A stretch of DNA of 52,544 nt from Chrysophaeum taylorii (lineage: Eukaryota; Sar; Pelagophyceae; Pelagomonadales; Pelagomonadaceae). Both the position numbers and the translations under genes were made by a program. Positions 1,191 through 28,370 of the stretch are shown piece after piece. Position 1 is the stretch's first letter. Every line of letters starts with the position of its first letter. The notes under the pieces are model-generated. The model was not told where the DNA came from. It worked only from the letters and a program-made list of their open reading frames with translations, and did no database searches. Where the stretch lies: assembly GCA_029834535.1 (NCBI GenBank), contig JAQMWT010000281.1:1-52544 (forward strand), given 5' to 3'.

Positions 1191-1515
1191 CAGTACTTAT
1201 CTCCGCCCGTCAGGCACATCCCTCCTACCCCACAAACCCACCCACATCCTTCATGCCCCCTGTGGCGGTTACTACAGCTTTATGTAGCGAGAAGTGTATG
1301 GTCCAAATAGGCTAATCCGGAGAAGCCGCCCATACACACTTTTGCGACATAAAAGCGATAGTGACCATGAGGCGTTACCGCCCACCCCCCCCACACACCC
1401 CCCTCTTAGCAGTCGACATTCAAAGACAAACAGACAGTCCCCACAAACCCACCCACATCCTTCATGCCCCCCACACACACCCCCTCTTAGCAGTCGACAT
1501 TTAAAGACAAACAGA
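1191..1515 (+). mobile_element. Non-LTR retrotransposon 3' UTR fragments, rearranged
   Basis: The stretch from CTTATCTCCGCCCGTCAGGC to GCAGTCGACATTTAAAGAC is the same 3'-untranslated sequence found (reverse strand) at 24448-24563 and 32235-32336, where it lies beside a nuclease-like coding fragment. Here it is present as a partial copy (1191-1260), an unrelated insert (about 1261-1385), the rest of that copy (to about 1435), and a second 5'-truncated copy (about 1437-1512) that runs into an (ACAG)n tail. The repeated 5' truncation and microsatellite tail suggest target-primed reverse transcription. Confidence 0.55.
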
Positions 1516-1625
1516 CAGACAGACAGACAGACAAGACAGACAGACAGACAGACAGACAGACTGACAGCAGACCACAGACAGACAGACAGGCAGACAGCAG
1601 ACAGACAGACAGACAGACAAACAAA
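1505..1625. repeat. (ACAG)n microsatellite
   Basis: About 120 bases of nearly pure ACAG/CAGA tetranucleotide with a few interruptions. It directly follows the 3' UTR of the non-LTR fragment and probably began as its tail. The open frames across it on both strands are products of the tandem repeat. Confidence 0.9.
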
Positions 1626-3440: not shown

Positions 3441-3442
3441 AG

Positions 3443-3808
3443 GTGTGGAGGCGTGAAATGTTCCAGTGTCGTACACATAATAGTGTAGCTCTATGGAAAC
3501 GCGCATGCAGAGAAGGATCCTCAAACCGATTTCGATGCAGACAACAACCCTATATAGCCGTAGACGATATTCGATTTATCATAGAATTCATACCACTCCT
3601 GTTCAGACAAGCTGCACCGTACCCACTTCTAAACAACCCTGACTGCTCTCCCCTTGTAAAGCTCTGTCTCTCGCGGTCAAGATCCAGGGAATATTTGGCA
3701 TTGCAAAGACCCGCGTTTCTTCACGTCCCTGGCAATGTTAATGTTGCTGATGGCTTTACCAAAAAAAAACTCTTGCGCCGACTTTGCTACGTTTGCGTTC
3801 TCTCCTAG
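3443..3808 (+). pseudogene. Copia pol remnant, RNase H end
   Basis: The frame is a mosaic of two pieces of a Ty1/copia polyprotein. The first about 15 residues (FQCRTHNSVALW) recur in the copia locus at 34663-34938. The remainder aligns with the end of the RNase H domain of the minus-strand copia at 30438-31379: an IRFI segment, a block around NNPD, the REYLALQ segment and the closing HVPGNVNVADGFTK motif, which is diagnostic for copia pol C-termini. The catalytic part of RNase H and all of RT and integrase are missing, so this is a deleted, decayed copy. It is followed at once by the third-ORF remnant of the same family. Confidence 0.75.
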
Positions 3809-4330
3809 TTTTATGCCCCATGTCCCCCTGACTCCGACCCAACAGAGAACAACACAGAATAACTGCTAAACCTGGTGACCGTGAAAATGTCCCGTTAAAC
3901 TCGCCCTTAATCCACATAAAAATCATGATACACACTGACCCTCAACTTCGTAGATCCGCCAATGCCTTACTCGGCATTGCTTCCGGCTCTTCCTAAGGAT
4001 ATCACCTGCAATCGTCGGGAGCCCCCTCGCTCTTTTCCTCCTGTCGAGTCGGGACTATACCCCCAGACTCAAATCGCACCCAGGAAGCCTCCTCCGAAGA
4101 CGATGTTCCCAAAGCGTTGTCAGCGCTCTGTTCATCGATACGACGGAACTCTCAACCCCGCTACCTACTCGCGTACGTTCTTACCTCATGATTTCCAACA
4201 ACTTATGCAAACGCTTACCTGTCGATGGCAGCGTCAGAACACCACTCACTAACTTCCTTGCTACGCACGCGCGTAGCGAATTACCATGCAGCCTTGTTAA
4301 ATTGGTTAAAAAAGGTATATAGCGACTAAA
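3809..4330 (+). pseudogene. Copia third-ORF remnant, copy 1
   Basis: Begins just after the pol remnant and aligns at DNA level with 6044-6480 and, more distantly, with the reverse strand of 30435 downward. Shared landmarks are the CTGGTGACCG...GTTAAACT block, the GCCAATGCCTTACTCGGC start region and the block encoding NATGLPVEEAYRTP-like residues. It carries many small insertions relative to copy 2, breaking every frame. The same junction in three places shows this ORF normally lies directly downstream of pol in the family. Confidence 0.6.
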
Positions 4331-6000
4331 AAAAACCTTAAGGGGGGGGCGCGGGAGAGGGGGGGCATCGAAGGGAGAGGACCACGGGGATCTTTGAGGG
4401 GTGGGTATTTTTTTGGATGTGTTCACTGGGGTTTTTGAAATCCAGGATTTGGGGTGAGGTAAGAAGATTTGGGGGTAGGGGTGTAAAGGAAGGAAGACGG
4501 GATAGCAGGTGGTGGTGGATGGGGGTTAGAGGGCAGGGGATGGGGGTGCGGGAGGATGAGATCCTGATGAATGACGATAGAATTCAAACATGTCCGGCTA
4601 GATCATAGAGTGGGACTTTTGCCAAGGTCTGGCTTGTGGGTAGGGGAGGGTGGTGGGTTGGGATCGGGTATGGTGAGTATGGGGAGGTATCCTTAGATGG
4701 AGAGGGTTGGTTACGCTGGTGTGGAGCACAGGATTGGGTAATCAGGTAAAGAAGGGATGGGTGGTCGGGGTTTGACAAAAAGGATGGGCTGTTAGGGGTC
4801 ACAGTCTGTTGAGGCTTTAACCAGGGAGCCTGCCTGATATATATATCACTGAGGGGAGGGGGGGTGCGAATGGTGGCGTCGAGTTGGCTCACTTGTACAG
4901 GACACAGAATTTCGGCAGGGGATCTTGTAAGAGTGTCATCGGACATGTTCGCGACACACAGGCCAAAAATTGGGGACTGGGGAATGGGGTAATGTACTCG
5001 GGGTGGGGTATTTGGTGGGGGGGGAGAGGGGTCGGGGGGGGGGCGGGGGGGGGGGGTAGGAGGATTGTATTTTGGGGGTGTATTGTGTTTGTGGGCTATG
5101 AGTGGGAAGTGTAATGTTGTTGTGGGTGGGTGGGTTGCGGGGAGATTGGTTAGGTAGGGTGTGAGGGTAGGTGATGGGTAGGGAGGGTAGTTTTCTGACG
5201 GTGAGGGGGCAGTTAGTATGCAAGGTGTTTGTGGAAAAAAAGTTGGTTTTACTTTTTGGACAAATGGTACATTGCCTTGTGTGGGGTAGGATTACTGATG
5301 AGTATTGAGGGTTCGGTTTTCGTAGGGGTCAGAACTATTTCGGGTGTGGTGACCTTGGTTGTTTGCGTGTTTTAGTTAGTGTGGGTTATATTTTGATTGC
5401 GAGTCTTATGGGCTGGGGGGGTTTGGATGGGTGCCCCCATGTGAGTGTTGGCGGATTGAGTGGGAGAAAGGACGGTGTATCTAGTGGTGATTGGGTAGTG
5501 TAGGGGTAAACTGTTTGTTGAGCTGTTTGGTTAATACAATGTGGGGGCTGAATGTTGTATCTTGATGGTCATGGTGGCCGGGGGCCTGTTGGATGCATTG
5601 GTTTTTTTTAAAGGTTTTTTTGAGTTGACGGTCGCATTGGGCTTGATGTTGTTGGGTGTTGTTGCAGTGTGGCTCATTATAGGGTTGTTAATGGGAGTGT
5701 GTATTGTTGTGGCTTGTATTGGTGACTCCTTTTGATGAGTAATGGAGTTTGGCTAGGTTAAAGGCGGGTATTTGTGTGCGTTGGAATCGGTTAGGGTTTG
5801 TTGACTTTCTGTTGTTGTCATTAGGTTGGTGTTTTCTATCCTCTTTGTGGATACATTTTTCGTTGTTTATTTTGACTTTGTGGGGTTTTCGCGGTATGAA
5901 TGTTCGTTTTTACTGGTTATTCATACTAAACAATTGTCTGCTCTGTGTAAAGTTCCTGTGTTTGTGTTTTGTGGGTTCTGTGTGGCTTTTGACGTCGCTG
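4331..6000 (+). other. C-depleted G/T-rich tract with long G runs
   Basis: The plus strand here is made largely of G and T (first half G-rich, second half T- and G-rich), unlike any other part of the window. Pure G runs occur, the longest around 5035-5056. Frames on this strand look hydrophobic because of the composition and I do not regard them as genes. The tract is bounded by two direct copies of the copia pol-end/third-ORF junction, and its last 120 bases show weak alignment with the pol end, so it may be strongly and asymmetrically mutated copia sequence. Confidence 0.6.
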
Positions 6001-6619
6001 GGGTCATAAACTCTTGCAGGTGCGAAATTAGCTTTTTTTACGTTTTTCTTTATGCACCATGTCCACCCTGACTCGACCCAAGGAGAAACCTAACTGCTAA
6101 CCCTGGTGACCGAAATGTCGTTAAACTAGCCCTTTCTTTTTACCACTACCTCAACTTGTACGTCGCCAATGCCTTACTCGGCATTGCGTCCGTCTCTTCC
6201 TAGAGGAGTATCACCTGCACGTCGTGAGCCCCCTCGCTCTCTTCCTCCTGTCGAGTCGTGAACTACACCCCCAGACTCAAATCGCAGGAAGCCTACTCGA
6301 GACGATATTACCCAGCTGTTGTCTCGCTCTGTTTCATCGATACGAGCGGAACTCTCAACCCCGCTACCACTCGCCGACGTTCTTACGTTCAATTTCAACA
6401 ACTATGCAAACGGCTTACCGGTCGAGGAAGCGTACAGAACACCACTCACTAACTTCCTTGCTACTTTCGCGCGTATGGAACTACCGTCAGCCTTAGATGC
6501 AGTTTATGTGTCCAAGAACCTTCTCGCTTTCATGGAGCTATCTGCCTTCCTTTCCCATCTGTACACGTGGAAGCAAGAAAGACTCTCAATTGGTTGGACC
6601 TGGTCGCTCTTGGGATTGT
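6001..6619 (+). pseudogene. Copia third-ORF remnant, copy 2
   Basis: Starts with the decayed pol end (AAACTCTTGC block shared with copy 1) and continues into the third ORF. The best-preserved frame, 6319-6619, reads about 100 residues including a TFNFNNYANGLPVEEAYRTP segment and TPLTNFLATFARMELPSALD. These align with the LSMDYALYERGISLLENFRV and FLSSFMRVELITVLHSSMG segments of the intact-looking ORF at 29975-30352. An in-frame stop lies upstream (around 6259), so this copy is broken. It is terminated by a SINE-like insertion at 6625. Confidence 0.65.
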
Positions 6620-6624
6620 GATTT

Positions 6625-6974
6625 ACGGTTGCGATAGAGGACGGTGCCTCATGAATCCTGAGCCTTGCGAGGGCATCCGCCCTCCCGGCGTAGGTTGGCA
6701 CCTATTCGCCTCCCGGGCGGGCCGGTTGGCAGCCGGAACTTTCGCAGTGGGACGGGGTATGGCCGGGGGGCGAGGACGGAAGGTTATCGACGAGTTGGTT
6801 GTCACTCACATCGCGGTCTCCTCGTCGCATGGCGACAAGCTTGATGGTCACTCTCCGCCGACCGACCTTTCGGCGCTCCTCGTCTACAGGCCCGTGATTC
6901 CGGACTGGCTCCTGTCGGTCCGGCCTGGCTCCCATGCTCGGGAGAGGTCTGAAGTTAGTTAGTTAGTTTAGTTA
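6625..6974 (+). mobile_element. SINE-like retroposon with (TTAG)n tail
   Basis: A 350-bp copy of a dispersed short element. It starts near ACGGTTGCGATAGAGGACGG and ends in repeated TTAG. A 5-bp GATTT flanks it on both sides (6620-6624 and 6975-6979). No open frame is conserved between copies. The tail and target duplication point to retroposition using another element's machinery; I could not find convincing RNA polymerase III A and B boxes. Confidence 0.7.
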
Positions 6975-7324
6975 GATTTCGAGATGGCGTGAGTGTTGAC
7001 GCTGAGATCGGGCGTGTGGTGGTATCACCCGCGGTTTGGGCGTTTGGGCTGGGTGAAAGGGCTTGTCGTGACCACCGGTCCGGCCAAGGGGGGCGGGGAT
7101 CAGAGTTACCACTACAGCGTCGCCGTCGATCTTGGGCCTGTTCCTAAAGATCGGCTCCTTCATATGCCACGCGCATGGATATTGGGCCCATGCGTGAGTT
7201 GGCTGGGAATCTCCGAGGAAAGACATTTCAAATGAAGTCAAGAGAAACACGAGCGGTGTTGTCAGACATAACCACTAAACAACCGATTTAAAGCTTGATA
7301 TCGCACGCCTCGCTGGGGTGATTC

Positions 7325-7373
7325 CAGCTCACCGCAGCCAGCTCAATTTTAGTTCACCGCAGCCAGCTCAATT
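7325..7373. repeat. Direct tandem duplication, about 25 bp
   Basis: The sequence TCACCGCAGCCAGCTCAATTTT appears twice in a row. It lies at the downstream end of the minus-strand unknown ORFs. Confidence 0.75.
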
Positions 7374-14058: not shown

Positions 14059-15015
14059 ACTACTAATCGACAGATGTTTGTTTGTTTGTTTGTCTGTTTG
14101 TCCCTCGATTTAGGGTAAGGATCAGGTAGGCGCGAGAGTAAGGATCAGGTAGGAGCGAGAGCCAGACAGTGATCCTCCAAGCCGTCTACGGCGACCTCGC
14201 AGACTATTTCCACGACCCGCGGCGGCTCTTTCAGCGCGCCATTCTCACGCCCCGTCGAAACGATGTTGTCGATGCTGACAACGCGCGCATGACCGCGGCC
14301 TTTTTTTCCCGGAGACGAGGCGTCGGAGTTCTTTTCGGCTGACTAGGCTGGGTCGGAAGACGACGCCTCGCTCTTTACAGTAGAGTTTTCAACTCCCTGA
14401 CAACCAACGGCATGCTGACTTTGATCGCGAGCTTAATGTCTTCGCAACCTCGACCCGTCGCACGGCCACTGCAACGGAACCAGATACATGCTCGATCGTG
14501 TCGTTGTCACCGAGGCTCCTCCAACCTGTATCGCTTAAGGCCCGTCTACGCCAAACGATCAACAAGAGCCAGGGCCAGACGTCCCGCGAGGTCGGCGTCC
14601 TCTTGGCGAAGCCCGTCTTCTGCCACGTCCAGCTCTACGTGGCTCTCTGTCGATCGGCAACCCCGAGGATATCCTCTTCTGGGTCGACGACTCCACCCTA
14701 CCCCACACGTGCTGCGCAATGCCGATAAGCCCCCTCCCGGCGTCTACACGCGCACTATAGGTGAACTTACTGGGACCACGTGAACTTACTGGGGTTTGAG
14801 ATTGGGACTAGGTGGACTGAGTGACCAGGTGGAACGGGGACCAGGTGAACATACTGGGGTTTTCAGAGTAAAGGGTTTTTAGAGTAAACTCAAAGGTTGG
14901 CGGCGCGTGCGGATCAAAGCAGCTTAGATTGGCGGAGGCGAGAGCGACGAGCTCAAAGGAGTTGGTGTGAGCTAGGTGAACTTACTGACCAGGTGAACTT
15001 ATACGAAACTTACTG
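14059..15015 (+). mobile_element. Helitron-derived unit, 5' part (split copy)
   Basis: Starts ACTACTAATCGACAGATG with TGTT/TGTC repeats, then the helicase remnant and the AGGTGAACTTACTGG short repeats. It breaks off inside GAAACTTACTG; the sequence resumes at 24386 with TACTGGGACAGGTG and ends at 24447, giving the usual unit length when joined. The gap is exactly the 9.37-kb long-TIR element. The helicase segment LRKLDPSHGHCNGTRYM-like text and NKSQGQTSREVGVLLAKPVF are readable in different frames. Confidence 0.85.
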
Positions 15016-15069
15016 TACTGTAGGCCGTTTGGCGAATAGTAATTCTGGGGCCGCAGTACCCTACGTGTC

Positions 15070-15665
15070 CGTTCGCTAAGTATATAGTCGGTTTGTGGGA
15101 GTCAGTACTTTAGGTGCGTGTCCGTTGGCGAAGTATATAGTTGTTTTGTGGGAGTGAGTACTTTAGGTGCGTGTCCGTTGGCGAAGTATATAGTCGTTTT
15201 GTGGGAGTCAGTACTTTAGGTGCGTGTCCGTTGGCTAAGTATATAGTCGTTTTGTGGGAGTCGATACCTTTACGTGCGTGTTCGTCGGCGAAGTATATAG
15301 TCGTTTTGTGGGAGTCAGTACTTTAGGTGCGTGTCCGTTCGCTAAGTATATAGTTGTTTTGTGGGAGTCAATACCTTTACGTGCGTGTTCGTCGGCGAAG
15401 TATATAGTTGTTTTGTGGGAGTCAGTACTTTAGGTGCGTGTCCGTTGGCGAAGTATATAGTCGGTTTGCGGGAGTCAGTTCTTTAGGTGCGTGTCCGTTG
15501 GCCAAGTATAAGTTTAGGTGCGTGTCCGTTGGCGAAGTATATAGTCGGTTTGCGGGAGTCAGTACTTTAGGTGCGTGTCCGTTGGCGAAGTATATAGTAG
15601 TTTTGTGGGAGTCGATACCCTTACGTGCGTGTTCGTCGGCGAAGTATATAGTCGTTTTGTGGGAG
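15070..15665. repeat. 53/54-bp tandem array, left arm
   Basis: About 11 units of 53-54 bp, each containing GTATATAGTCGTTTTGTGGG. Two variants alternate irregularly: one with AGTACTTTAGGTGCGTGTCC and one with GATACCTTTACGTGCGTGTT. One unit near 15505 is shortened. Open frames across it are artefacts of the repeat. Confidence 0.9.
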
Positions 15666-15846
15666 TTACGTAATAGTTCATCGGGGAGTGGTGCTGTAAT
15701 AGTTACTTTTTCGAAAGTCGTGTAATAGTTTATCGGGAGTCAAATAGTTTTGAGAATCGGAGAGAACAAATTGGATGCTGTCCGTTAAGCTGACGCAGCC
15801 GTCCGTTAACGGATCAACTAGGTTTAAGCGTCGGTGTACAGGCCAC

Positions 15847-16246
15847 TACCCTAACCCTCCGATCGCTAACCGCATGGTTGCGATGGAGGACGGCGCCTAA
15901 CACGCTTGCTCCCTGCGGCGGCCCCTGCCGTCCCGGAGTGAGACGGTGCCTCCTCGCCTCCCGGGCTGGCCGGTTAGCACCCGGAAAGTCCGCGCCGGGA
16001 TGGGGTGCGCTCGGTTGGGCAGAACGCGACGGACAGGTCGATTGTTCGTGGACCAACACGTCCGCGGCCTGCGACGCTCTTGCACGACCTCGCACAAGAC
16101 CGCGCGCAGTGGCGGTCCGCCATCAAGGAGTCCTCGTCCCTCGCCTCTGCCCCAACTGCGTGAAGTTTCTCCGTGATTCCGGACCGGCTCGTGCCGGTCC
16201 GGCCTGGCTCCCATGCTCCAGAGAGGTCTGAAGTTAGTTTAGTTAG
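15847..16246 (+). mobile_element. SINE-like retroposon nested in left TIR
   Basis: The longest copy of the family in the window (400 bp), beginning ACCCTAACCCTCCGATCGC and ending GTTAGTTTAGTTAG. The 10-bp target duplication TACAGGCCAC is at 15837-15846 and 16247-16256. The right arm carries the uninterrupted target, which proves the insertion is later than the element. Confidence 0.85.
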
Positions 16247-16305
16247 TACAGGCCACACTCAACACCACGTCAGTTTTTCTTTACGTCAACTTGCAGGCTC
16301 GCAAC

Positions 16306-17050
16306 GGTCTTGGTTTGTGAGGCTCATGATTGTGGGCGACGGGAGGACTGGAAGCTCCAATCGTGGCCCGCGGCGTCTGGCTAGAGGACTGGAAGCGCCA
16401 GTCGTTCGTGGCCCCGACGAATGGGTCCTCGACGAGCACGTGCATGGCGACGGGTGTGGACACTGACGGCCAGAATGGCGAAGCTGCTGAGGTGATGACG
16501 ACCATCTGTGTCAGGCTGCATCGCGACGGCGCCGATCGGTGATCCAAGTCCGCGTCACGAAACGAGCCAGCGACACGGTTGGCAACTCGGTGAAGTTTCA
16601 CGGCGACGCCACGCGATTTTGTAAGCAGCTGGTTAGATGACCTTCGAAGACGTGCGCACGAGGCGCGCGACGACGGCCGCACCGATGTGCTCGAAACCCA
16701 CGGCAATGTGGTGGCTTGTGTTGGGTTCTATATTTGATGACTCCGGTCGGGTGACGCTCCATGCAAGTGGCACGAATGTGGGCGCGCGCTCAACATCTCG
16801 CACGTCAACATCCCTCACTGACGTTCGGGGGCGCACAAACTTCTGTAAAGCCGCCTACGAAGACAACCGGCGGTTTGCATATTGAGACGACGGGCCGATC
16901 AGACCAACACCGTGTGTTCCGCGACGAGCCCAAAGTGTGCCCCCGACCAACCATAAAGCCCAGCGCATTTGTTTCGTTGAAACCACCGTGACGGTGCGGC
17001 TGGTTGCGTATGGTTTACAATTTCATGCCACGTCAAAGGCAGCCTGAACA
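16306..17050 (+). other. Unknown coding-like region inside the long-TIR element
   Basis: Plus-strand segments look protein-like in successive frames: VWLEDWKRQSFVAPTNGSST near 16375, then IQVRVTKRASDTVGNSVKFH at 16540, a segment at 16637-16885 and VTVRLVAYGLQFHATSKAA near 16988. Together they suggest one decayed or intron-containing gene on the plus strand, opposite to the minus-strand cluster. No family recognised. Confidence 0.3.
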
Positions 17051-17099
17051 ATTCAACGCCCGCACCGACACTGACACGCAGCCACTGCCGCCCTGCTCC

Positions 17100-18107
17100 C
17101 TACTTCGTCAGCAACAAGCGGCACCCCATAGAGCACCTCACCATCAAGGGATTTGTCGTCCCAGTCTCGAGGCCAACGCCTGCATCCGTACGCCCGGCCC
17201 CTTGCGGCGTTCTCTTGCGATGATCGTGCGTCTCGCGGGCGATTGCGCGTCGGCACCTGCACACCGCGCCCTCGAGCATTCGCTTCGCTGTCATGTCGAA
17301 GAGGAACTTCGCCACCTCGGCATGGTCCTTGAACCCCGTGGAGATAAAGATCTCGAAACTGCACGTTGCGGCCCAGATCGGCTTGTGCTGCTCCTTCCAA
17401 GGCTTGCCGTGACCATCAACGAGGCGCCAGTTTAGAACCGACGGCTTATGCTTGTCGGGTGGCGAGAGCGTCCCGGTCGTGTATAATATCAGCGCCCGGA
17501 GAGGCGGAAGGACCGGCAGAAATGCCTCTAGGGCTTCTTGCCCATCGTCCGGATGGGGAGCGAAAATTTCGGGGTGATCGCGGTAGTTGTCGAGCAAGCG
17601 TAGCATTTCGTGAATGAATCTCCGGAAGGAACCGGCGTCGAAGATGTCGCGGTGCCATGACTGTGGGCACGCGGAGAAATTGCACTCGGCGACGATGTTC
17701 AGAGGCTTTAATGCCGGGGCACCTTTGCAAATAGCGAGGAGCAGCTCCCTCCGGTACTTGTCGCTAAAGAGCGTCGTCGCGAGCACCGAAAAAACGACGG
17801 CGGCTGCTCTGAAGTCGCAGTTCAGGCCACCTAGGTTTTGGACCTTCTCCAGGGCCTCGACGATGGAGCTGTGTCGCCCTGGGAGCGACAACTCTCGAAC
17901 CTTGGACAGGAAATCGGTGGCTGCACGAAGCATGATGCCTTTTGGGGCATGAGCCGAGCTGTCCGAACCGCCGAACATCAAGCGATCCGCGAAGCTTTTG
18001 GAGAACAAAGTCCCCGTGCCAGCCGATTCGGGTTCAGCCCCTTCATTGGCACCGGCGCCTTCCACGCAGGCAGAAGCGACGGCTTCCAAAAGGAGCAGAG
18101 CCGCCAC
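17100..18107 (-). CDS. Unknown protein, long-TIR element ORF 4
   Basis: A 335-aa minus-strand frame with no intact family signature that I know. The N-terminus has a hydrophobic stretch (MAALLLLEAVASACV) that could be a signal segment, then an acidic linker, then a mostly helical globular region with FSVLATTLFSDKYRRELLLA and a loop FNSACPQSW-like text. A second globular block contains FLPVLPPLRALILYTTGTLS and NWRLVDGHGKPWKEQHKPIW. The last about 60 residues are Arg-rich and an alternative frame overlaps there, so the true end may be earlier or frameshifted. It follows ORF 3 with 20 bases between them, in keeping with a polycistronic layout. Confidence 0.45.
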   Translation of the reverse strand: MAALLLLEAVASACVEGAGANEGAEPESAGTGTLFSKSFADRLMFGGSDSSAHAPKGIMLRAATDFLSKVRELSLPGRHSSIVEALEKVQNLGGLNCDFRAAAVVFSVLATTLFSDKYRRELLLAICKGAPALKPLNIVAECNFSACPQSWHRDIFDAGSFRRFIHEMLRLLDNYRDHPEIFAPHPDDGQEALEAFLPVLPPLRALILYTTGTLSPPDKHKPSVLNWRLVDGHGKPWKEQHKPIWAATCSFEIFISTGFKDHAEVAKFLFDMTAKRMLEGAVCRCRRAIARETHDHRKRTPQGAGRTDAGVGLETGTTNPLMVRCSMGCRLLLTK

Positions 18108-18127
18108 GCACTTACCGTCCAGTTCGC

Positions 18128-18784
18128 CTATTTCACGGTCGCGAGCGAGGAGGCCTGAGGTCGAGATTTCGTGTGAGAATGCGAGCGGATTCTAGCACAC
18201 AGACACATGCTAAAAGCAGATAACGAACATGTGAGAGGAACCAAGGCAGAAACTCGGACGCTGGGTCTTGCCTTCTTCTGCAGGCTCCCTGAAGTCCTGC
18301 ACAAGGCGGAGACCACCATGATCGGACGAAGGCTGGAGCACCTGTTCAGCACGCCGGGTAGCGTCAAGTGGCACCTTGATAGACGCGCGGTACACACCAA
18401 GCTCTCACTCTGCTCAAGCGCGAGGTGCGCAATTGAGACGAGCGTCGCCATCTTGCCTGGGCCTTTACCTGCATTAATCGCGGAAGTTTGAGGACTGTTG
18501 ATTCCGATCTGGCCGGTGAAGAAGAGGCAGAGCAGCGTGAGGAAGGTGATGTATACGATGACCTCGCCGTTCTGCACGTACCCCCCGGAAATTAGAAACT
18601 CTTGGTACGCGATGCCCTCGGGGTTCTTGACCTCGTAGGTGAGCTTCGCGACGAGCCAATCTTCGTTGCTTTGACGGAGAGTTGGCGCGTAGACGTCGTA
18701 GAACTTCTGGTTGAAGATGTCGGCAATGGCGCGGCGAGACAAGGCGACTGTGGTGGACGGCGCACAGTCAACCTGTAGGCTCAT
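18128..18784 (-). CDS. Unknown membrane-anchored protein, long-TIR element ORF 3
   Basis: A 218-aa minus-strand frame whose ATG lies inside the end of ORF 2 (17 bases of overlap). The first about 80 residues look like a small folded domain (SRRAIADIFNQKFYDVYAPT, LVAKLTYEVKNPEGI), followed by one clear hydrophobic segment VIVYITFLTLLCLFF that could cross a membrane. Beyond about residue 105 the composition changes to Ser/Leu/Cys-rich, which may be a spliced-out or wrong-frame extension. Overlapping starts of this kind are usual in viruses and virus-like elements and rare in host genes. Function unknown. Confidence 0.45.
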   Translation of the reverse strand: MSLQVDCAPSTTVALSRRAIADIFNQKFYDVYAPTLRQSNEDWLVAKLTYEVKNPEGIAYQEFLISGGYVQNGEVIVYITFLTLLCLFFTGQIGINSPQTSAINAGKGPGKMATLVSIAHLALEQSESLVCTARLSRCHLTLPGVLNRCSSLRPIMVVSALCRTSGSLQKKARPSVRVSALVPLTCSLSAFSMCLCARIRSHSHTKSRPQASSLATVK

Positions 18785-20567
18785 AAACTTGACTCGAAAT
18801 CACCCACACGTAAGTTGCACGGACCTGCACACTCGTATCAAAGTTCGCCGCAATCGGCAAACAACGCGGGATCCCCCTGGGAGCATTCACCGCCAGCGTC
18901 GTCCGGACCGTGCACGACACGAGGGGCTCGAGGCGGAGCTCCAACTCGAACAGCAGGTTTGGCGGATCCGCTGTGATGTGCATCTCGCTATTGTGGCAGA
19001 AGACTCCCAACGCGGGGGACTGGAAGTTCCCTCCATTTGGAGTGATGACGCGGACGCTGAGGGTCGTCATGCCCCCGAGGACTCCGAGGGCCTCGGCGAG
19101 CCGGTCCTCTGGAAGCAATGCCCGCAACCCGTCGTTGATCTCGAAAAAATCTATGACCGTGACAAGCTTGCCTTCGAAGACGATGCCGCGGCGGAGGATC
19201 GAGGTGGGATCGCGCAACTTGTAGACGCCATTTCCAGACTGCTGCACGATGTCGAAGACTGTTTTCTCCAGGCCGGACGTTTCGTTGACCTCGTCGATGC
19301 GCGGTCGTTGAGGTTGGTGCGCAGGCAGCTGCGTAGGGAAGGTCAATGGCGGCAAAGGGAGTGTACTGTGGCGTACCTCGAACGAGGGGTCGTTGATGGC
19401 AGTGTCGCTGCGACTAGGGGATTGGTTCGGAGCATCGCGCTTTGTAGGGGACGCCCTTGGTGGAGACACATTTTGTTGGACCTCCTTCTCCTGCGCCGCG
19501 CTATCCCTGTCATCCTCGTCGACGTCGTCGACAGCGGAGCCGAAGTCAGACTCGTCGACCTCGATCGGGCAAGCTTCGCGCCCATCCGTGGTGCCATGCG
19601 CGGTTGGTGGGGGGTGCTCGCTTTTGGCCTCAGCAGCGACCGGCCCTTGAAAGGGTCGGTTGGCATGCTGGCCCCATAGTCGCCCGAGGTCGTGCAAGCC
19701 AGGTTCACGAGCCCGACGTGTACGGCGATAAATGGGCTGGCGGCTCTCGTCGTCGTCGTCGTCGTCGGCCTCCTCGTCCATATCTCTCGGGCGCATGATG
19801 GCCCTCATGACGGCCGGCATAATTTCCGGAAAGAGTATCAATACGATTTTCGGGCGTGGGTTGGTCGTTCGATGCCCCAACTGGGACACGAGGCTCGCAT
19901 TCAACCCTGGGCAATGACGTGAGTCGGCAACATAGGACGGGTCCGAATTTGAAGATTTTGAGCTCAACGCAACCTTTAGGCGCCCTTGGAAAGAATCGAC
20001 GCGCACCTCAGGAAGTAGATGTGCGTGGCTGTCGCGGACAAGTTCGCCGGGACGAGAGCGAATCTCGACAAACACGTTGACGAGCGGGTTTGTGTGGCGG
20101 CGGTGCATGATTCCGTTCGCGAACCTCCCATCCGCATCAAGTCCTCGAAGGGTGAACAAGTCGTCGGGGGCGCTCTGTACGCCAAAGAATTCCAGAATGT
20201 TGAACACAGCTTCGTTTACTGTAATAGGATTCCCCTCACGACCTAAAACGAGCGAAAATTCGGTTCGGGTGAGCGTCTGTTCCATAATAGGAAGATCGCC
20301 ATGCAGGATAGTAGCACTCGGCCTCCCCGTTTGTCCTCGAGCTTGTCGGTAAAGGTCCCGTACAGACCACCCGGCGTCTTCTAGGAGCGGACGGACGCAC
20401 AAAACCGCGTTCAACGCGATGCTGCTTGAGTCGTGCCAGCTGGGTTCCCGTTCTTGGTACCGACGTGTGCCTCGACGTCTCGGACCGCCTCGGCCGCGAG
20501 GAAAAGTGCTCGCCCCCCGTTGGCCACTCCCTCCCGACCTCGTAAGTTGTCGGGTCCAAGATTCCAA
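18768..20567 (-). CDS. Unknown 599-aa protein, long-TIR element ORF 2
   Basis: The largest frame in the element. The first about 50 residues are Arg/Gly-rich and probably out of frame relative to the real gene. Recognisable organisation: an N-terminal globular region (NAVLCVRPLLEDAGWSVRDL, GNPITVNEAVFNILEFFGVQ), a central acidic and Pro/Ser-rich low-complexity linker with a run of seven Asp residues, and a C-terminal region rich in beta-type sequence (GIVFEGKLVTVIDFFEINDG, LLFELELRLEPLVSCTVRTT). The two globular regions each have a VFNILEFFGVQ / VTVIDFFEINDG type motif with nearby Leu-Arg repeats, which may reflect an internal duplication. No family recognised. ORF 1 overlaps it by 157 bases in another frame. 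Confidence 0.5.
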   Translation of the reverse strand: MESWTRQLTRSGGSGQRGASTFPRGRGGPRRRGTRRYQEREPSWHDSSSIALNAVLCVRPLLEDAGWSVRDLYRQARGQTGRPSATILHGDLPIMEQTLTRTEFSLVLGREGNPITVNEAVFNILEFFGVQSAPDDLFTLRGLDADGRFANGIMHRRHTNPLVNVFVEIRSRPGELVRDSHAHLLPEVRVDSFQGRLKVALSSKSSNSDPSYVADSRHCPGLNASLVSQLGHRTTNPRPKIVLILFPEIMPAVMRAIMRPRDMDEEADDDDDDESRQPIYRRTRRAREPGLHDLGRLWGQHANRPFQGPVAAEAKSEHPPPTAHGTTDGREACPIEVDESDFGSAVDDVDEDDRDSAAQEKEVQQNVSPPRASPTKRDAPNQSPSRSDTAINDPSFEVRHSTLPLPPLTFPTQLPAHQPQRPRIDEVNETSGLEKTVFDIVQQSGNGVYKLRDPTSILRRGIVFEGKLVTVIDFFEINDGLRALLPEDRLAEALGVLGGMTTLSVRVITPNGGNFQSPALGVFCHNSEMHITADPPNLLFELELRLEPLVSCTVRTTLAVNAPRGIPRCLPIAANFDTSVQVRATYVWVISSQVYEPTG

Positions 20568-20872
20568 TACCGACCCGCGACCCGACTGGTTTCGCGACTT
20601 GCGTCACCACGACGAGGAACGGGCGACTCCCTCAGAAAATCGGCCGACTCTCTCCGGAAATCGTCTTCGCGGCGGGCATCAGGCGTGTCGCTGCGCGAAT
20701 CGAATCTTCGTCTCCCTCTGAGAGCGTTCCCTTCAGACTCTCTCTCGGCGGCGTCACGGACATCATCAGGCGCTTGACTGCTGCGACGCGCACTTTCGAT
20801 CGCGCCCATAAAAGCTTCTAAGCTTAACCCGAAGCGGCGCGCTACTTGCGCCAAATGCGCCGCGTCGTCCAT
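20411..20872 (-). CDS. Unknown acidic/basic helical protein, long-TIR element ORF 1
   Basis: The frame is open from 21058; I prefer the ATG at 20872 (MDDAAHLAQVARRFGLSLEA), with 20926 as an alternative. The product begins with a helical domain, followed by an Arg/Asp/Glu-rich segment with repeated FRRES/DASRE text and a segment GRYWNLGPDNLRG. It overlaps ORF 2 by 157 bases. The join could be a programmed frameshift producing an ORF1-ORF2 fusion, an ordinary mutation, or a removed intron. Confidence 0.4.
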   Translation of the reverse strand: MDDAAHLAQVARRFGLSLEAFMGAIESARRSSQAPDDVRDAAERESEGNALRGRRRFDSRSDTPDARREDDFRRESADFLRESPVPRRGDASRETSRVAGRYWNLGPDNLRGREGVANGGRALFLAAEAVRDVEAHVGTKNGNPAGTTQAASR

Positions 20873-20975
20873 CACGTCGGGCCTACGTGGCACCTCCTGT
20901 GGCTTGTTGAAGTTTGGCGATTTCATCAATATCATTACCACTAGAGTGTGCCAATGCCACAAGAAAACGGGCATC

Positions 20976-21660
20976 TCACGATGCGCGAAAATGCAGAAGA
21001 GGTGGACGCAATGATTCGCAAGCGGAAGGCGGAGGAGGAAGCAGGCGACTCGTACCACCTTCGACTGTCAGAGGCTTCTTTAAAAAGTTGTTGGTGACGG
21101 CGCGGCGCGCGGAGTTGCAGCAGAAGGCGGCGACGTCTGCGGCGGCGTCTGCGGCGGTGCCGACGGAAAAGAAGGAGCGAAAGAGGCGGTCACTGGAGTT
21201 GTTGAACGTGCCAACGAGGTGCCCGTCGCGATACCGGAACGTGCAATCCGTCGTGGGCACCCACGAGTACGTCAATCAATTCGAGGCCGAGGGGCGGTAG
21301 AAAAACGACGAGCCTACCCAGGAGGAGGCGTGCAAAGTCGCGTTCTGAGTAACTGGCGCCGGACGGTCGAGGAGTTGGAAACCAATCTTGCTGCAGCAGG
21401 CACACCTTCCGACCTTCCCGTCACGTACCTCAAGGGCATCATCGTCTCCCGCACTGGCGCATGTCCCAAGGCTAAGAACAACAGGGAGGTCGATGGCCAA
21501 AAGCCCCTTCTCGCAGAATGCGACAGCGCCCTCCGAGTTATCACCAACACGCAATGTCCACCCACCCCCGCGCTGCCGACGCTCGCTCCAAGGCTCCCGT
21601 CGAACAGCAATGCCGACGAGCCCAAGACCCCTATGAAGACCCAGCTGCGTCGACTGTGAC
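20976..21660 (+). other. Unknown coding-like plus-strand segments in the long-TIR element
   Basis: Starting about 20978, a helical highly charged segment (MRENAEEVDAMIRKRKAEEE) leads through changing frames to TARRAELQQKAATSAAASAA, EKKERKRRSLELLNVPTRCP and VEELETNLAAAGTPSDLPVT. This reads as one broken or spliced plus-strand gene. Divergent from ORF 1, with starts only about 100 bases apart, so the space between 20873 and 20975 may hold a bidirectional promoter. Family unknown. Confidence 0.35.
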
Positions 21661-22240
21661 ACCTGCATCCCCAACGTCGCCCGCGATGACGAGGGCTTTT
21701 TCGTCTGACTCGAATGCGGTGCCGTGCAGCTGGAATATACCCGAGTTTGTTGTGGACCCACCCACCGCAAAACGATTGACTTCGAGGGACCACCATCGCG
21801 ATGGATATCATCATTCCCCAAACCCGGCCCAATCCGTACCTCCTGTCCACCACCGTGTCCCTTTATAGATGTGCTTCGCATGGCGGCCAGCCAACCGGAA
21901 AGTCCAGGCGCATCAGACCGCCTGCTGCCACCACGGAGCCTTACGTCCCATTGTTCGGCGCGACACGACGCTCAAACCACCGTGCTCCTCGCGGCTAGCG
22001 GACCAACGGAGCAAGCCATCCAGGTGAAAACAACACGCGAGGGCTCACTGCCCCATCCGGTCTCCTGACTTCGTGAATTGGGCTTCGAATCAAATAAAAA
22101 GCTACAGCCCCAAGCCCACCAACGGAGACCCATATGTTTTATTAGCAGCCGCCGCCCTTGCCCTCGCGGCAGGGTAAAAAATCTTGAACGGGTGATGATC
22201 ATCGCGATTCGAACATTCGGAAGCATGCACAGTCACCGGC
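21661..22240 (+). other. Possible Cys-rich coding remnant
   Basis: Around 21655-21860 the plus strand can be read, with one shift, as CDTCIPNVARDDEGFF, then ECGAVQLEYTRVCCGP and PPSRWISSFPKP, with Cys pairs (C-x-x-C, CC). This might be a small zinc-binding domain. The rest to 22240 shows nothing I can support. Confidence 0.25.
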
Positions 22241-22934
22241 GTGAATAACCTCGAGCTAACTTACTTTACGGCACAAAAATTTACCGCAACGGGAAACAGC
22301 GCGGGGTGTCGCGGGGTGGTCGGCCGAAGGCAGCACGTTCGCGGCAATGTGCCGAAGAGCAACAGGGCCCTCCGCATTCGGGTCAGATCGCGAAGTCGGA
22401 GTTATCGGAGGTGGAGTTGGGGATGTTGGCGTTGGGGATGTTGGAGTCCCAGTCGGCGCAATTGGCATTTTCATCTTGGTCGTGGACGCGCTCGGTTGGA
22501 GCTCAGTGATGAGGGGGCGCCGTGGGGTGTGCTGTTTCGTAGGGCCACGCGGGCTTCTTTCGAGAAAGGTTTTAAGCCTTCTGGCCGTAGACTTCGTCTC
22601 ACCCGCTGCCTCGCAACCGGCGAAGCCACCAAATTCGCCTCCAGAGCGTATGGCTCCGGGTCGCCCGTCTCGACATCTACCTCACGCTTCCTGCGCCCGT
22701 CTCGACGTCTGCCTTACGCTTGCAGAACATCTTCCCAACGTTTTCCACCGTGACCAAGTGGTAAAACCAACTGGTGCCGAAAAACAAGAACATGGACTGT
22801 GTCGCGCCGCACGCGCCAAGACGTAACAATCTCAGCATCACCATCAGCGCCATGTTGCCGGGCCTCATCACCGCCCTGCCAGCTAGCCCGCGCGTGCTCT
22901 GTAGTCTTCCTCACACGTCATCGTGGTTTTCGGG
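22241..22934. other. Unresolved inner end of the long-TIR element
   Basis: Frames overlap on both strands (plus 22241-22753 and minus 22677-22871). The minus frame has a hydrophobic N-terminus and basic C-terminus; a short GATGTTGGCGTTGGG-type repeat lies at 22420-22450. I cannot choose between them. Confidence 0.25.
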
Positions 22935-23018
22935 CCGTTCGATGCAAGTTGACGTAAAGAAAACGGACGTAGTGTCGAGTGGCCTGTACACCGACGCTTA
23001 AACCTAGTTGATCCGTTA

Positions 23019-23374
23019 CCCTGATCGGCGACTGCGGTTGCGATGGAGGACGGTGCCTCATGAATCCTGAGCCTTGCGAGGGCATCCGCCCTCCCGGCGT
23101 AGGTTTGCGCCTATTCGCCTCCCGGGCGGGCCGGTTGGCAGCCGGAACGTTCGCAGTGGGACGGTGTATGGCCGGGGGGCGAAGACGGAAGGTTATCGAC
23201 GAGTTGGTTGTCAGTCACATCGCGGTCTCCTCGTCGCATGGCGACAAGCTTGATGGTCTCTCTCCGCCGACCGACCTTTCGGCGCTCCTCGTCTACAGGC
23301 CCGTGATTCCGGACTGGCTCCTGTCGGTCCGGCCTGGCTCCCATGCTCGGGAGAGGTCTGAAGTTAGTTAGTTA
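23019..23374 (+). mobile_element. SINE-like retroposon nested in right TIR
   Basis: About 356 bp, ending in AGTTAGTTAG. A 9-bp target duplication GATCCGTTA lies at 23010-23018 and 23375-23383; the left arm has the uninterrupted target (CCGTTAACGGATCAACTAGG). It belongs to the same subfamily as the 6625-6974 copy, different from the copy in the left arm, so the two insertions are independent. Confidence 0.85.
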
Positions 23375-23524
23375 GATCCGTTAACGGACGGCTGCGTCAG
23401 CTTAACGGACAGCATCCAATTTGTTCTCTCCGATTCTCAAAACTATTTGACTCCCGATAAACTATTACACGACTTTCGAAAAAGTAACTATTACAGCACC
23501 ACTCCCCGATAAACTATTACGTAA

Positions 23525-24335
23525 CTCCCACAAAACAACTATATACTTCGCCGACGAACACGCACGTAAAGGTATCGACTCCCACAAAACGACTATATAC
23601 TTAGCCAACGGACACGCACCTAAAGTACTGACTCCCACAAAACAACTATATACTTAGCGAACGGACACGCACCTAAAGTACTCACTCCCACAAAACGACT
23701 ATATACTTCGCCGACGAACACGCACGTAAGGGTATCGTCTCCCGCAAACCGACTATATACTTCGCCAACGGACACGCACCTAAAGTACTGACTCCCACAA
23801 AACAACTATATACTTCGCCGACGAACACGCACGTAAAGGTATCGACTCCCACAAAACAACTATATACTTCGCCGACGAACACGCACGTAAAGGTATCGAC
23901 TCCCACAAAACAACTATATACTTGGCGAACGGACACGCACCTAAAGTACTGACTCCCACAAAACGACTATATACTTCGCCGACGAACACGCACGTAAAGG
24001 TATCGACAACGAACACGCACGTAAAGGTATCGACTCCCACAAAACAACTATATACTTAGCGAACGGACACGCACCTAAAGTACTGACTCCCACAAAACGA
24101 CTATATACTTCGCCGACGAACACGCACGTAAAGGTATCGACTCTCACAAAACGACTATATACTTAGCCAACGGGCACGCACCTAAAGTACTGACTCCCAC
24201 AAAACGACTATATACTTCGCTAACGGACACGCGCCTAAAGTACTCACTCCCACAAAACAACTATATACTTCGCCAACGGACGCGCACCTAAAGTACTGAC
24301 TCCCACAAACCGACTATATACTTAGCGAACGGACA
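23525..24335. repeat. 53/54-bp tandem array, right arm
   Basis: About 14-15 units, reverse complement of the left array with the same two variants. One unit near 24005 is shortened. The copy number differs from the left arm. Confidence 0.9.
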
Positions 24336-24385
24336 CGTAGGGTACTGCGGCCCCAGAATTACTATTCGCCAAACGGCCTACAGTA

Positions 24386-24447
24386 TACTGGGACAGGTGA
24401 ACTTACTAGGGTTAGAGATTGGGACTAGGTGAACTTACTGGCCTGCA
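24386..24447 (+). mobile_element. Helitron-derived unit, 3' part (split copy)
   Basis: Completes the copy begun at 14059: TACTGGGACAGGTGAACTTA through GGCCTGCACTTGT. Confidence 0.85.
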
Positions 24448-24835
24448 CTTGTCTTTAAATGTCGACTGCTAAGAGGGGGGTGTGTGTGGGGAGCATGAAG
24501 GATGTGGGTGGGTTTGTGGGGTATGAGGGATGTGCCTGACGGGCGGAGATAAGTACGCGGGACCTAGTCGGGGTCATCGCCGAGGCGTGGGGCAGGCGAA
24601 GAGAGGACGGGCCCCGCCCGTAGGTCGTACGCATGCTGCCGCCGGACGTATGTGCGACGAAGGGTGACGTCCTGCTGGGATCGGGCGGCCTGGGTGGGGT
24701 TCCCCGCGGCGGCGACATGGGTGAGGGCAGTGAGGGCACAGCGAGCCCGGCCTAATGCGTTGGCGATCCCCCACTCACGGTAGATGCGGCGAGTTTGGGC
24801 TGCCTTTGCCTCTGTGAAGTTGGCGCAGCCGCTTG
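24448..24835 (-). pseudogene. Non-LTR retrotransposon 3' end, nuclease-like C-terminus
   Basis: Minus-strand coding from about 24835 to a stop at 24564 gives the C-terminal part of the protein also seen at 31396-32230: SGCANFTEAKAAQTRRIYRE, then ANALGRARCALTALTHV, plus about 45 further residues ending at GDDPD that are missing there. It is followed by the 3' UTR (24563 down to 24448) with GAGGGATGTGCCTGACGGG and ending in CGACATTTAAAGAC on the minus strand. The 5' part is cut off at about 24836. The fragment abuts the Helitron terminus exactly. Confidence 0.6.
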
Positions 24836-24839
24836 TCTT

Positions 24840-26530
24840 ACTCTTAGTGAGCAAACATACGGTTCGGTGACAAAACAGGGCGCGCCGTGATCAAGCTTTC
24901 AGCGGTTCTGCATATCGCGCTGTGACTCCGGAGCGTCCTTCGACTTCGAAACGAACGATGATGAGGACGGTATCGATGTGGGCTTCGCTCAGGTCGAGCG
25001 GGAGCGTGGTGGTAACACGCCGACGTCGGTTGACCACGACGCCGATAAAGAAAACAAGAAGTCGCGTGTTCTGACGAAGGTAAACGATTATGAGAGATCG
25101 CCGCGTACGCTGTCGCAGCTCAGAGCGTGCAAACACGAGGCTCCACTTTACTCAACCTAGCCGAACAATGCCAAGTTCAGCATGTGTGTTCTCGAGGCCG
25201 ACTTGCAGCAGATGATGTTCGACACGGGCGGCAAGTTGACGGCGTGTACAACATGGTCTACAGCGCGACAGCGCTGTCGTTCAAGTGCTATATGCAAGGT
25301 GCAGCTTTTATGTGCGCGCTGCCCGTTGTGATGTGCAAGTAGACAATATCGTCACGTGTGCTAAAAGGCACACCTGCTCCGAACCTTCGTGCCGACAAAG
25401 ATCCGGCTATCGCGCGAAGCACTTCTGCGAGGCCGTGTCGGTCCTCATCAAGGGCTTTATGGAGGGCAAGTCAGGCGGCTCTTCTCGGCGTATGCGTTTG
25501 ATAGACATCTGCAACAATGTCATCCGCCAAAGGCACGAGATGACGAACCGGGATCGTTCGCTGCAGTCTGCCATAAACATCGAACTAATAAGGCGCATCC
25601 GAATAATCTTGGGCGACGAAAGAGCGTGGTATCAGCGCTGTCTTACGTAGGCCTTGTTTGTGGATGTTGTTCTGCGAGTATTCGCATGTTGATGTCGTAC
25701 TGATGACTGGGTTAGAATTACAGGGGTGGTGTCAGCGATCTTCCCGGAGCGAGGCTGTCGGCGTCTTGACATCCCTTCGCGCCGCAGCTTGTATTTGCCG
25801 ACTTTCTCGTACAGTTCTCGACGGTGCAGCAGCAGCGGGAGATCTTGCGGCGGGGCGGGGTTGTCGAGATGCTCGAGGAGGAGGAGGAGGATAAGGAGGG
25901 GTTCACTTACGGTCGTGCGAGTTGTTTATGCAGGCGTAATGGCACGTGTTCGCGTTGCCGTCCCATGTCCAAGCTGGACAGCTAACTCCGGATCGGGTAC
26001 GCGAAGGTGAGGAACTCCCGAACGTGGTCCTGTACGGTCCCGCACAAGTGTGGGACTACACTCTTTGGGTGCGCCAGGGGCGTTGCTCGCGTAGTTTCTC
26101 GAGGTCGTCGAGTTTCGCGTTCTCGACCCCGAGTCGATTATCAAAGACGCGCTCTCTCTCGGATTTTGGGATGCAGAATGGGGTGATCCGTCTCACGCAG
26201 ACCATGTAAGTCTGGTGTCCGATGTCCGCTTGTTGCTGAAGAATGACGTACGATCACGGGAACACCACCGTGGTGAGTCGCGGTTTGGGTGGCTTCTACG
26301 AACGATGAAAGGTACGAGAATGGGCCCAGCTTAAGTACGCCAAGCCGTGGGAATCTGCTCTCGAGGCCGCGTGTCGCTGCCCGCTCTCCTTGCGTATCGC
26401 CGCGCTGTCTTAGGATGGACCTCCTTATAAGGCGGTCATGGGGGGGTGCCCATGCCGCGCGTGTAACGCCACGGTAGATTCTGCGCAGCTGCACCACCTA
26501 GCTCTCGTTTTTAAAGCATTTTCGCACCAA
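24840..26530 (+). pseudogene. Decayed unknown coding region
   Basis: A series of plus-strand segments with protein-like text in changing frames: DFETNDDEDGIDVGFAQVE near 24945, NAKFSMCVLEADLQQMMFDT at 25165, a longer stretch 25330-25640 with AKHFCEAVSVLIKGFMEGKS, QFSTVQQQREILRRGGVVEM near 25810, and FRVLDPESIIKDALSLGFWD near 26110. Direction and spacing are consistent with one or two genes that have lost their frame, or with introns I cannot place. No family recognised. None of this recurs elsewhere in the window, so it may be host or captured sequence. Confidence 0.35.
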
Positions 26531-26759: not shown

Positions 26760-27819
26760 ACTACTAATCGACAGATGTTTGTCTGTCTGTCTGTTTGTTT
26801 GTTTGTCTGTCCCTCGATTTAGGGTAAGGATCAGGTAGGCGCGAGAGTAAGGATCAGGTAGGCGCGAGAGCCAGACAGTGATCCTCTAAGCCGTCTACGG
26901 CGACCTCGCAGACTATTTCCACGACCCGCGGCGGCTCTTTCAGCGCGCCATTCTCACGCCCCGTCGAAACGATGTTGTCGATGCTGACAACGCGCGCATG
27001 ACCGCGGCCCTTTTTTCCCGGAGACGAGGCGTCGGAGTTCTTTTCGGCTGACTAGGTTGGGTCGGAAGCCGACGCCTCGCTCTTTACAGTCGAGTTTTCG
27101 ACTCCCTGACAACCAACGGCATGCGGACTTTGATCGCGAGCTTATAGTCTTCGCAACCTCGACCCGTCGCACGGCCACTGCAACGGTACCAGATACATGA
27201 TCGATCGTGTCGTGTCACCGAGGCTCCTCCAACCTGTATCCCTTAAGGCCCGCCGACGCCAAACGACCACCAAGAGCCAGGGCCAGACGCCCCGCGAGGT
27301 CGGCGTCCTCTTGGCGAAGCCCGTCTTCTGCCACGTCCAGCTCTACGTGGCTCTCTGTCGATCGGCAACCCCGAGGACATCCTCTTCTTGGTCGACGACT
27401 CCACCCTACTCCACACGTGCTGCGCAATACCGATAAGCCCCCTCCCAGCGTCTACACGCGCACTATAGGTTAACTTACTGGGACCAGGTGAACTTACTGG
27501 GGTTAGAGATTGGGACTAGGTGAACTTAGTGACCAGGTGAACTTACTGAGACCACGTGTGAACTTACTGGGGTTTTTAGAGTGAACGCAAAGGCTAGCGG
27601 CGTGTACGGATAAAAGCATCTTAGATTGGCGGAGGTGAGAGCGACGAGCTCGAAGGAGAGTGGGGTTAGTGGGTGTGAGCACGAGTGGGTTTACGCCAAA
27701 CTTACTGGGGTTAGAGATTGGGACTAGGTGAACTTACTGACCAGGTGAACGTAACGGGACTAGGTGAACTTACTGGGGTTAGAGATTGGGACTAGGTGAA
27801 CTTACTGGCCTGCACTTGT
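26760..27819 (+). mobile_element. Helitron-derived unit
   Basis: Complete single copy from ACTACTAATCGACAG to GCCTGCACTTGT, inserted into the AAGTTTGGTCA repeat without visible target duplication, as expected for Helitrons. The helicase remnant has NKSQGQTPREVGVLLAKPVF and HVQLYVALCRSA in one frame and FHDPRRLFQRAIL in another. Confidence 0.85.
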
Positions 27820-28370
27820 TTTCCCTTAAACATACATCATATCGAGCAAACTTGAAAGAAATTGACCAAACTTGTTGACCAAACTTGAACGATCCCTTTT
27901 ATTAATTAATGAAACTGCCGAGCATTTAGCATGCAGTGGTAAGTCACCTGGGAAACCATCCCGTCTCATCATGAACGTCTGGAAGGTTAATTCGGGGAAT
28001 GAAAGGTTATGTTCCCTATATCCTCAGAACACGGCAGGCGGCATCTAGAACTACTCGAGAAAGGTTAAGTGTGTAGTGCTACACACCTCGGGACGCGCTA
28101 GACCATGATGATGAGCTTGAGCACAAATCAGAGGACTAATTGGCTGTGTAGAAAGGAAGAAGAAGGGCAAGGAAGAGATCACGTTCTCAACGAACGGATA
28201 AGGGTAAGAGGCAGCAGATTTCTCTGCACCCCCTCGAGATGTCTTAAGCGCAAGGTGCGACTATAGAACACCTCTGGAGAAAGATGATGATGAAGGAAAG
28301 AAAAAGGAGAATACAGTCTTGATGGTCGCAGAGGTCACATACGAAGCATCAAGAGTATAGAAGGGGTGTC
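27820..28370. other. Repeat remainder and possible copia 3' end
   Basis: 27820-27910 completes the AAGTTTGGTCA repeat. 27920-28370 is where the 3' LTR of the minus-strand copia would be expected; there is a purine-rich GAGGGGGTGCAGAGAAA on the minus strand near 28220 and a TGTGTAGC/GCTACACA-like palindrome near 28075, but I found no second copy to prove an LTR. Confidence 0.4.

Follow-up and report, generated by a model that had tools for sequence, protein, structure and literature searches.

In the 52,544-nucleotide stretch of Chrysophaeum taylorii contig JAQMWT010000281.1 analysed here (the window), the block at positions 15016–24385 is best explained as a non-autonomous deletion derivative of a family of large cut-and-paste DNA transposons related to IS3EU/GingerRoot, a reading to which we assign a probability of about 0.86. 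The complete form of the element, best seen in a copy designated C53, is bounded by two long inverted arms; between them a DDE transposase gene points inward from the left side, and a gene that matches no known family (the orphan gene) converges on it. The window copy has intact ends, a target duplication and empty sites to compare with, and shares with two other copies a deletion that removes the transposase.

Element limits, target duplication and empty sites

The limits that a preliminary description of this DNA gave for the 9,370-bp element, 15016 and 24385, are exact to the base. TACTGTAGGCCGTTTGG begins at 15016 and its reverse complement terminates at 24385; the termini are inverted (TACTGTAGG..CCTACAGTA, i.e. 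TA..TA) and over their outer 383 nt the two arms show 98% complementarity. Directly outside both ends lies TACTG (15011–15015 on the left and 24386–24390 on the right), a 5-bp target site duplication (TSD). As an empty-site query we joined both window flanks with a single TACTG (148 nt) and scored the best 40 of 1,516 candidate places. All 40 match over 147–148 of the 148 nt at 98–99%, and there are two partial matches besides. One match lies in the window itself, at 44396–44544, and a single TACTG stands at the junction both there and in all four empty loci that were fetched.

We searched the 70.8-Mb assembly of 697 contigs (71 Mbp and 702 contigs in the accessible text of the genome paper, PMC10366177) with the 17-mer end, allowing up to two mismatches, and found 33 places compared with 2 for the reversed control; two of the 33 (C520:8342 and C596) have one common sequence, show no recognisable arm and appear to be chance matches. 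The end is no one-off. Nine copies are two-ended, in keeping with the earlier view that this is a mobile element. They occupy eight distinct sites, as C268 (L010) and C6 (L011), though on separate contigs, hold one and the same insertion between identical 20-bp flanks, representing a haplotype or a duplicated assembly region, and are therefore counted as one. Perfect 5-bp TSDs are found at four of the eight sites (GAAAC, AAAAG, GAGAT and TACTG), a perfect 6-bp TSD (CTGCAC) at one, and an imperfect 5-bp TSD matching at four of five positions (GTCGA/GTCCA) at another; C333 and C677 have none.

The repeat into which the window element is inserted is itself abundant. Sequence with GAACTTACTGGCCTGCACTTGTC occurs at 2,516 places in the genome (≤1 mismatch), where it corresponds to the empty target of the C113 copy, and in the window it is seen at 14780–15015, 24391–24450, 27466–27830 and 44396–44544. 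Among the matches listed, intervals of about 1.03 kb are frequent (C20 is one example), i.e. the repeat forms tandem arrays. Four other sequences, in C24 (L049), C113 at 33.6 kb (L050), C96 (L052) and C315 (L053), have the same 10–20 bp tip with a different continuation, and further inward in C24 a stretch scores highly against the 53-bp arm unit; these are possibly sister families or short non-autonomous elements.

Relatives encode a DDE transposase missing from the window copy

C53 is a 13.7-kb copy with the TSD AAAAG, and it corresponds to the window element plus 4.6 kb inserted at element position 2276/2277 (window 17291/17292). This 4.6-kb piece, which matches the window only via sequence resembling a short interspersed nuclear element (SINE), encodes a 435-residue protein, P0001, from a gene that reads inward from the left. 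P0001 matches PF24764 (E-value 3.2e-17, residues 153–333), which we take to be the Pfam family of IS3EU enzymes. Its Asp162, Asp220 and Glu269 are conserved in P0002, a 437-residue MMETSP/EukProt protein that is 48% identical to P0001 in the database search, and the best protein database match of the transposase is CTAYLR_005536 of C. taylorii. All six PF24764 matches in the genome lie inside elements of this family, and C6, C268, C53 and C684 have the same exon-1 reading frame, with a rounded identity of 100%. Scans of viral contigs, phage records and prokaryote genome contigs found no relative of the transposase.

No part of this transposase was found in the window (best tblastn E-value about 1). 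The earlier suggestion of a non-autonomous element is thus upheld, as the missing 4.6 kb is present in C53. The same description had recognised no transposase, polymerase or ATPase in the interior, and Pfam scans agree: none of seven open reading frames (ORFs) from the window gave a match above cut-off (best E-value 0.23). Rfam gave no match over 14500–25000. The genome search for further copies that it proposed yielded the family described here, with C53 supplying the interior that carries a transposase.

The left interior of the window element up to the deletion junction (16296–17291) is common to C53, C113, C684, C6, C268, C62, C333 and C199. Five of these (C6, C268, C684, C113 and C62) retain 2.8 kb of the 4.6-kb piece, 98.8–99.5% identical to C53, and lack the window interior between element positions 2277 and about 7996; over the retained transposase-side interior, C6 is 99.1–99.9% identical to the other four. 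There are accordingly two short forms, one with the transposase side and one with the orphan gene. A degraded remnant in C48 has both genes and is colinear with C53, and the orphan-gene copy in C416 continues past the deletion junction as C53 does. The layout with two genes is therefore older, and each short form arose from it by deletion. The junction at 17291–17292, where the 4.6 kb with the DDE gene is missing, is identical in the window, C333 and C199, three loci with different sequence in the outer flanks seen. Finding one and the same deletion in such different surroundings suggests that copies without the enzyme moved after the transposase was lost, presumably by means of the enzyme of intact relatives.

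Two copies have unusual interiors. In C677 (L019), repeats of roughly 1 kb, arrayed in both orientations, fill element positions ~1288–7366, and the copy lacks a clear target duplication. In C62 (L015/L016), positions ~604–5704 contain Copia-looking reverse transcriptase and integrase frames, read by eye, with related pieces in C480, C333, C592 and C520. We considered the C62 interior as a separate subfamily and rejected this, the ORFs suggesting a Copia-type retrotransposon inserted in the left arm.

Arms built of tip-like units

The outer part of the left terminal inverted repeat spans 15016–15846 (plus strand); the repeat continues to 16295 past a SINE-like insertion and totals 870 nt. The right one lies at 22943–24385 (minus strand) and measures 1,078 nt excluding an insertion at 23019–23375. 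The arm length of about 0.9 kb in the preliminary description accordingly holds for the left arm but is too low for the right one, both taken without their insertions. Each arm contains a ladder of mostly 53–54 bp units, with 11 cores of AAGTATATAGT (≤1 mismatch) at 15064–15666 (plus strand) and 15 cores, by the same threshold, at 23524–24337 (minus strand). There are 9–13 units per arm in C684, C268, C6, C113, C53, C62 and C333, 11 and 2 in C677, and 3 and 4 in C480.

The tip of the element is colinear with a ladder unit (TACTGTAGG versus TACTTTAGG, and onward via CCGTT-GGCGA and ATAGT). Aligned to the 53-bp unit the tip scores 32, which was reached in 2 of 5,000 shuffles; for the outer 34 nt alone the figure was 55 of 5,000. 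The likeness was noticed first and the shuffle test run afterwards. We considered whether the two arms of a copy evolve in concert and found no support: over the outer 300 nt, an arm resembles one from another copy more than its partner in five of the seven copies, C268 is about equally alike within and between copies, and only C333 is more alike within. C199 (L023) and C529 (L027) have a common flank of ~25 bp beside an element end, with slightly different arms.

The SINE-like insertion in the left arm (15847–16246, plus strand, 400 nt) has a TTAG-type tail and a 10-bp flanking duplication, TACAGGCCAC, at 15837–15846 and 16247–16256. That in the right arm (23019–23375, plus strand, 357 nt) has a like start and tail and an 8-bp duplication, ATCCGTTA, at 23011–23018 and 23376–23383. 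The left insertion occupies the identical position in eight other copies (C53, C333, C199, C113, C684, C6, C268 and C62) and was therefore carried along during their spread. The SINE-like family, ~360–400 bp with a TTAG-type tail, gave 41 matches from the best 40 of 1,467 candidates, mostly 93–97% alike.

The orphan gene

The orphan gene (17292–21058, minus strand, limits approximate) comprises ~1,000 codons in several segments, part of which is the partial NCBI entry CTAYLR_010157. It converges with the transposase gene in the C53 layout, and the deletion in the window swaps its original end for sequence from the other side of the junction. Its longest stop-free run, 611 codons, exceeds that in all 1,000 simulated sequences (maximum 550). 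Five NCBI proteins of C. taylorii represent it, including the window's own, on five contigs bearing this DNA. Searched as protein against the whole genome, it has 34 matches, which all fall on 12 contigs with element copies or the C48 remnant; those on C416 and C592 are counted regardless of arm boundaries.

Protein database searches that scored the best 8,000 candidates found no relative of the orphan gene outside C. taylorii, though distant ones may be missed, and there was no Pfam or NCBIfam family match. A sequence search of the PDB with an alignment of the five proteins gave a single match (E-value 0.54), which we take as chance. Ratios of nonsynonymous to synonymous change (pN/pS) among the window, C53 and C333 are 1.03–1.59 on few changes, with no sign of constraint; against older sequence they suggest weak selection, at 0.59–0.78 for the C416 copy and 0.67–0.75 for degraded C48, the latter with more than 440 codons set aside for gaps. 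This pattern agrees with relaxed evolution after insertion and is no proof of function. No gene was recognised in the right interior (21059–22942). Outside the element, a 330-residue ORF at 37600–38592 (minus strand) has a tetratricopeptide repeat match (TPR_8, 8.2e-6).

Probable affinity to IS3EU/GingerRoot elements

Among NCBIfam models, P0001 has weak yet significant matches to IS481 (1.5e-5) and IS3 (2.4e-4), and P0002 matches IS3 (2.1e-8), all below curated cut-offs; an IS3/IS481-like DDE core is thus present in the relatives and not in the window copy. One simple pattern for the HHCC zinc motif had no match in P0001, whose first catalytic Asp is residue 162. According to the accessible text of PMC10045372, IS3EU elements have TA..TA termini and a TSD of usually 6 bp, and IS3EU/GingerRoot enzymes have no HHCC motif and a first catalytic Asp 100–300 residues from the N-terminus. 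The TA..TA ends, the position of the first Asp, the lack of the HHCC pattern and the IS3/IS481 affinity fit IS3EU/GingerRoot-like behaviour, as predicted from sequence.

The resemblance extends to gene content. Short TSDs and TA..TA ends accompany an IS3/IS481-like DDE transposase in IS3EU/GingerRoot as here, and TET-bearing IS3EU families carry an extra gene (alpha-kinase) opposite to the transposase, as far as PMC10045372 and PMC12730594 were accessible. The present family differs in its mostly 5-bp TSDs, its ~1 kb arms of 53–54 bp tip-like repeats, an extra gene without a known domain, and a pelagophyte alga as host. Styx of Zymoseptoria is likewise described, in the available portion of PMC10853768, as a 7.9-kb element with IS3EU affinity and two genus-specific genes, of which a copy with a non-functional integrase was mobilised. 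Both systems combine an IS3EU-type enzyme with extra genes and copies that move, or here would have moved, with a broken or missing enzyme, whereas Styx has 6-bp TSDs and that portion mentions no repeat-ladder arms. Galileo/Foldback of Drosophila also has long, internally repetitive inverted arms, and the tandem repeats of Galileo contain further transposase binding sites; Galileo, with its THAP-domain transposase, is however a member of the P-element superfamily (PMC3688188, accessible part). We rejected membership in that group, since a PF24764 enzyme is found in place of a THAP/P-type one. No description of this element family was found among the listed titles and abstract openings of the literature on IS3EU and C. 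taylorii, nor the words transpos-, repeat or helitron in the accessible text of the genome paper (PMC10366177).

The preliminary description had named Maverick, KDZ and MULE as known superfamilies that might claim the element; none of them fits, and the affinity probably lies with IS3EU/GingerRoot instead. Polintons/Mavericks encode a protein-primed polymerase B, an ATPase, capsid genes and an rve integrase, and MULEs have a TSD of about 9 bp. No Pfam match of the Polinton kind was found among the window and C53 ORFs submitted. The TSDs of KDZ elements are 7 bp for Kyakuja and 8 bp for Zisupton in the accessible text of PMC12730594; those here are 5–6 bp, and no Pfam transposase match corresponds to KDZ or MULE.

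Counter-evidence and alternative explanations

Several observations weigh against our interpretation. TSDs at the eight sites are mostly 5 bp (four of 5 bp, one of 6 bp, one imperfect 5 bp, two none) compared with the usual 6 of IS3EU, and we base the assignment to a superfamily on PF24764, on the IS3/IS481 models and on the termini, not on a tree with IS3EU proteins. For these two reasons the family fits the description IS3EU-like, rather than that of a proven IS3EU/GingerRoot member or of a new superfamily. P0002 also matches the rve model (4.5e-4, below its cut-off). Finally, only the window has a clean TSD among the three loci with the deletion, C333 being a rearranged composite without a TSD and C199 having one resolved end.

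Because of this last point, the transposase-less form may never have moved, gene conversion or segmental duplication having spread a single deletion from locus to locus, and C6/C268 indeed show that the assembly contains duplicated loci. We consider this unlikely, though worth keeping in mind: the three loci have different outer flanks, and the window copy comes with a TSD and an empty site of its own.

The new superfamily raised in the preliminary description would require the orphan gene to encode the enzyme and the DDE transposase of the relatives to be a passenger. That the orphan gene has no family match and no relative outside C. taylorii among the candidates scored would suit such a scheme, as would window-type copies that bear it without any DDE gene. 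Yet C6/C268 and C113 have clean TSDs and have kept the DDE gene (99.1–99.9% interior identity to C6) while lacking the orphan gene, and TA..TA ends with short TSDs fit an IS3EU-type DDE enzyme by the accessible criteria of PMC10045372. With the relatives' transposase in PF24764 and its weak IS3/IS481 matches, we regard a new superfamily as very improbable.

A remnant of a Maverick/Polinton-like or viral element, left with arms and a few genes, for which the long repetitive inverted arms, the large size and TSDs near Polinton's 6 bp might speak, can scarcely be entertained, as no polymerase B, packaging ATPase, protease or capsid was matched among the ORFs submitted, the transposase belongs to PF24764 with rve at an E-value of only 0.18, and it has no relative in viral contigs or phage records.

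Proposed mechanism and implications

If the block is indeed a deletion derivative of an IS3EU-like family, a transposase from intact copies (such as CTAYLR_005536) would recognise the tips and probably also the tip-like 53–54 bp units, pair the ends, excise the element and join it across a 5–6 bp staggered target. The window copy, having no enzyme, would have moved in trans, for which Styx offers a precedent (PMC10853768); Galileo provides one for repeated binding sites in long arms (PMC3688188), in both cases within the accessible text. The orphan gene may be an accessory or a passenger and would be dispensable in cis, because copies of 6.1–6.3 kb that lack it have also spread.

A more specific proposal, possible in our view but on balance doubtful, is that this is a distinct IS3EU-related lineage with 5-bp TSDs, whose terminal recognition sequence has multiplied to give ~9–15 near-ends per arm. 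The ~1,000-residue orphan protein would have accompanied the transposase since before the C48 split, with a role in recognising the ends or in evading silencing, and the lineage would later have split into enzyme-only and dependent orphan-gene-only forms.

The proposed new superfamily is thereby replaced by a testable two-component system of enzyme-bearing and enzyme-less copies whose arms carry tip-like units. With the orphan gene comes a protein family for which the searches made found no relatives, and the ladder of tip-like units lets one ask why long repetitive arms arise in unrelated superfamilies, P-type in Galileo and IS3EU-like here.

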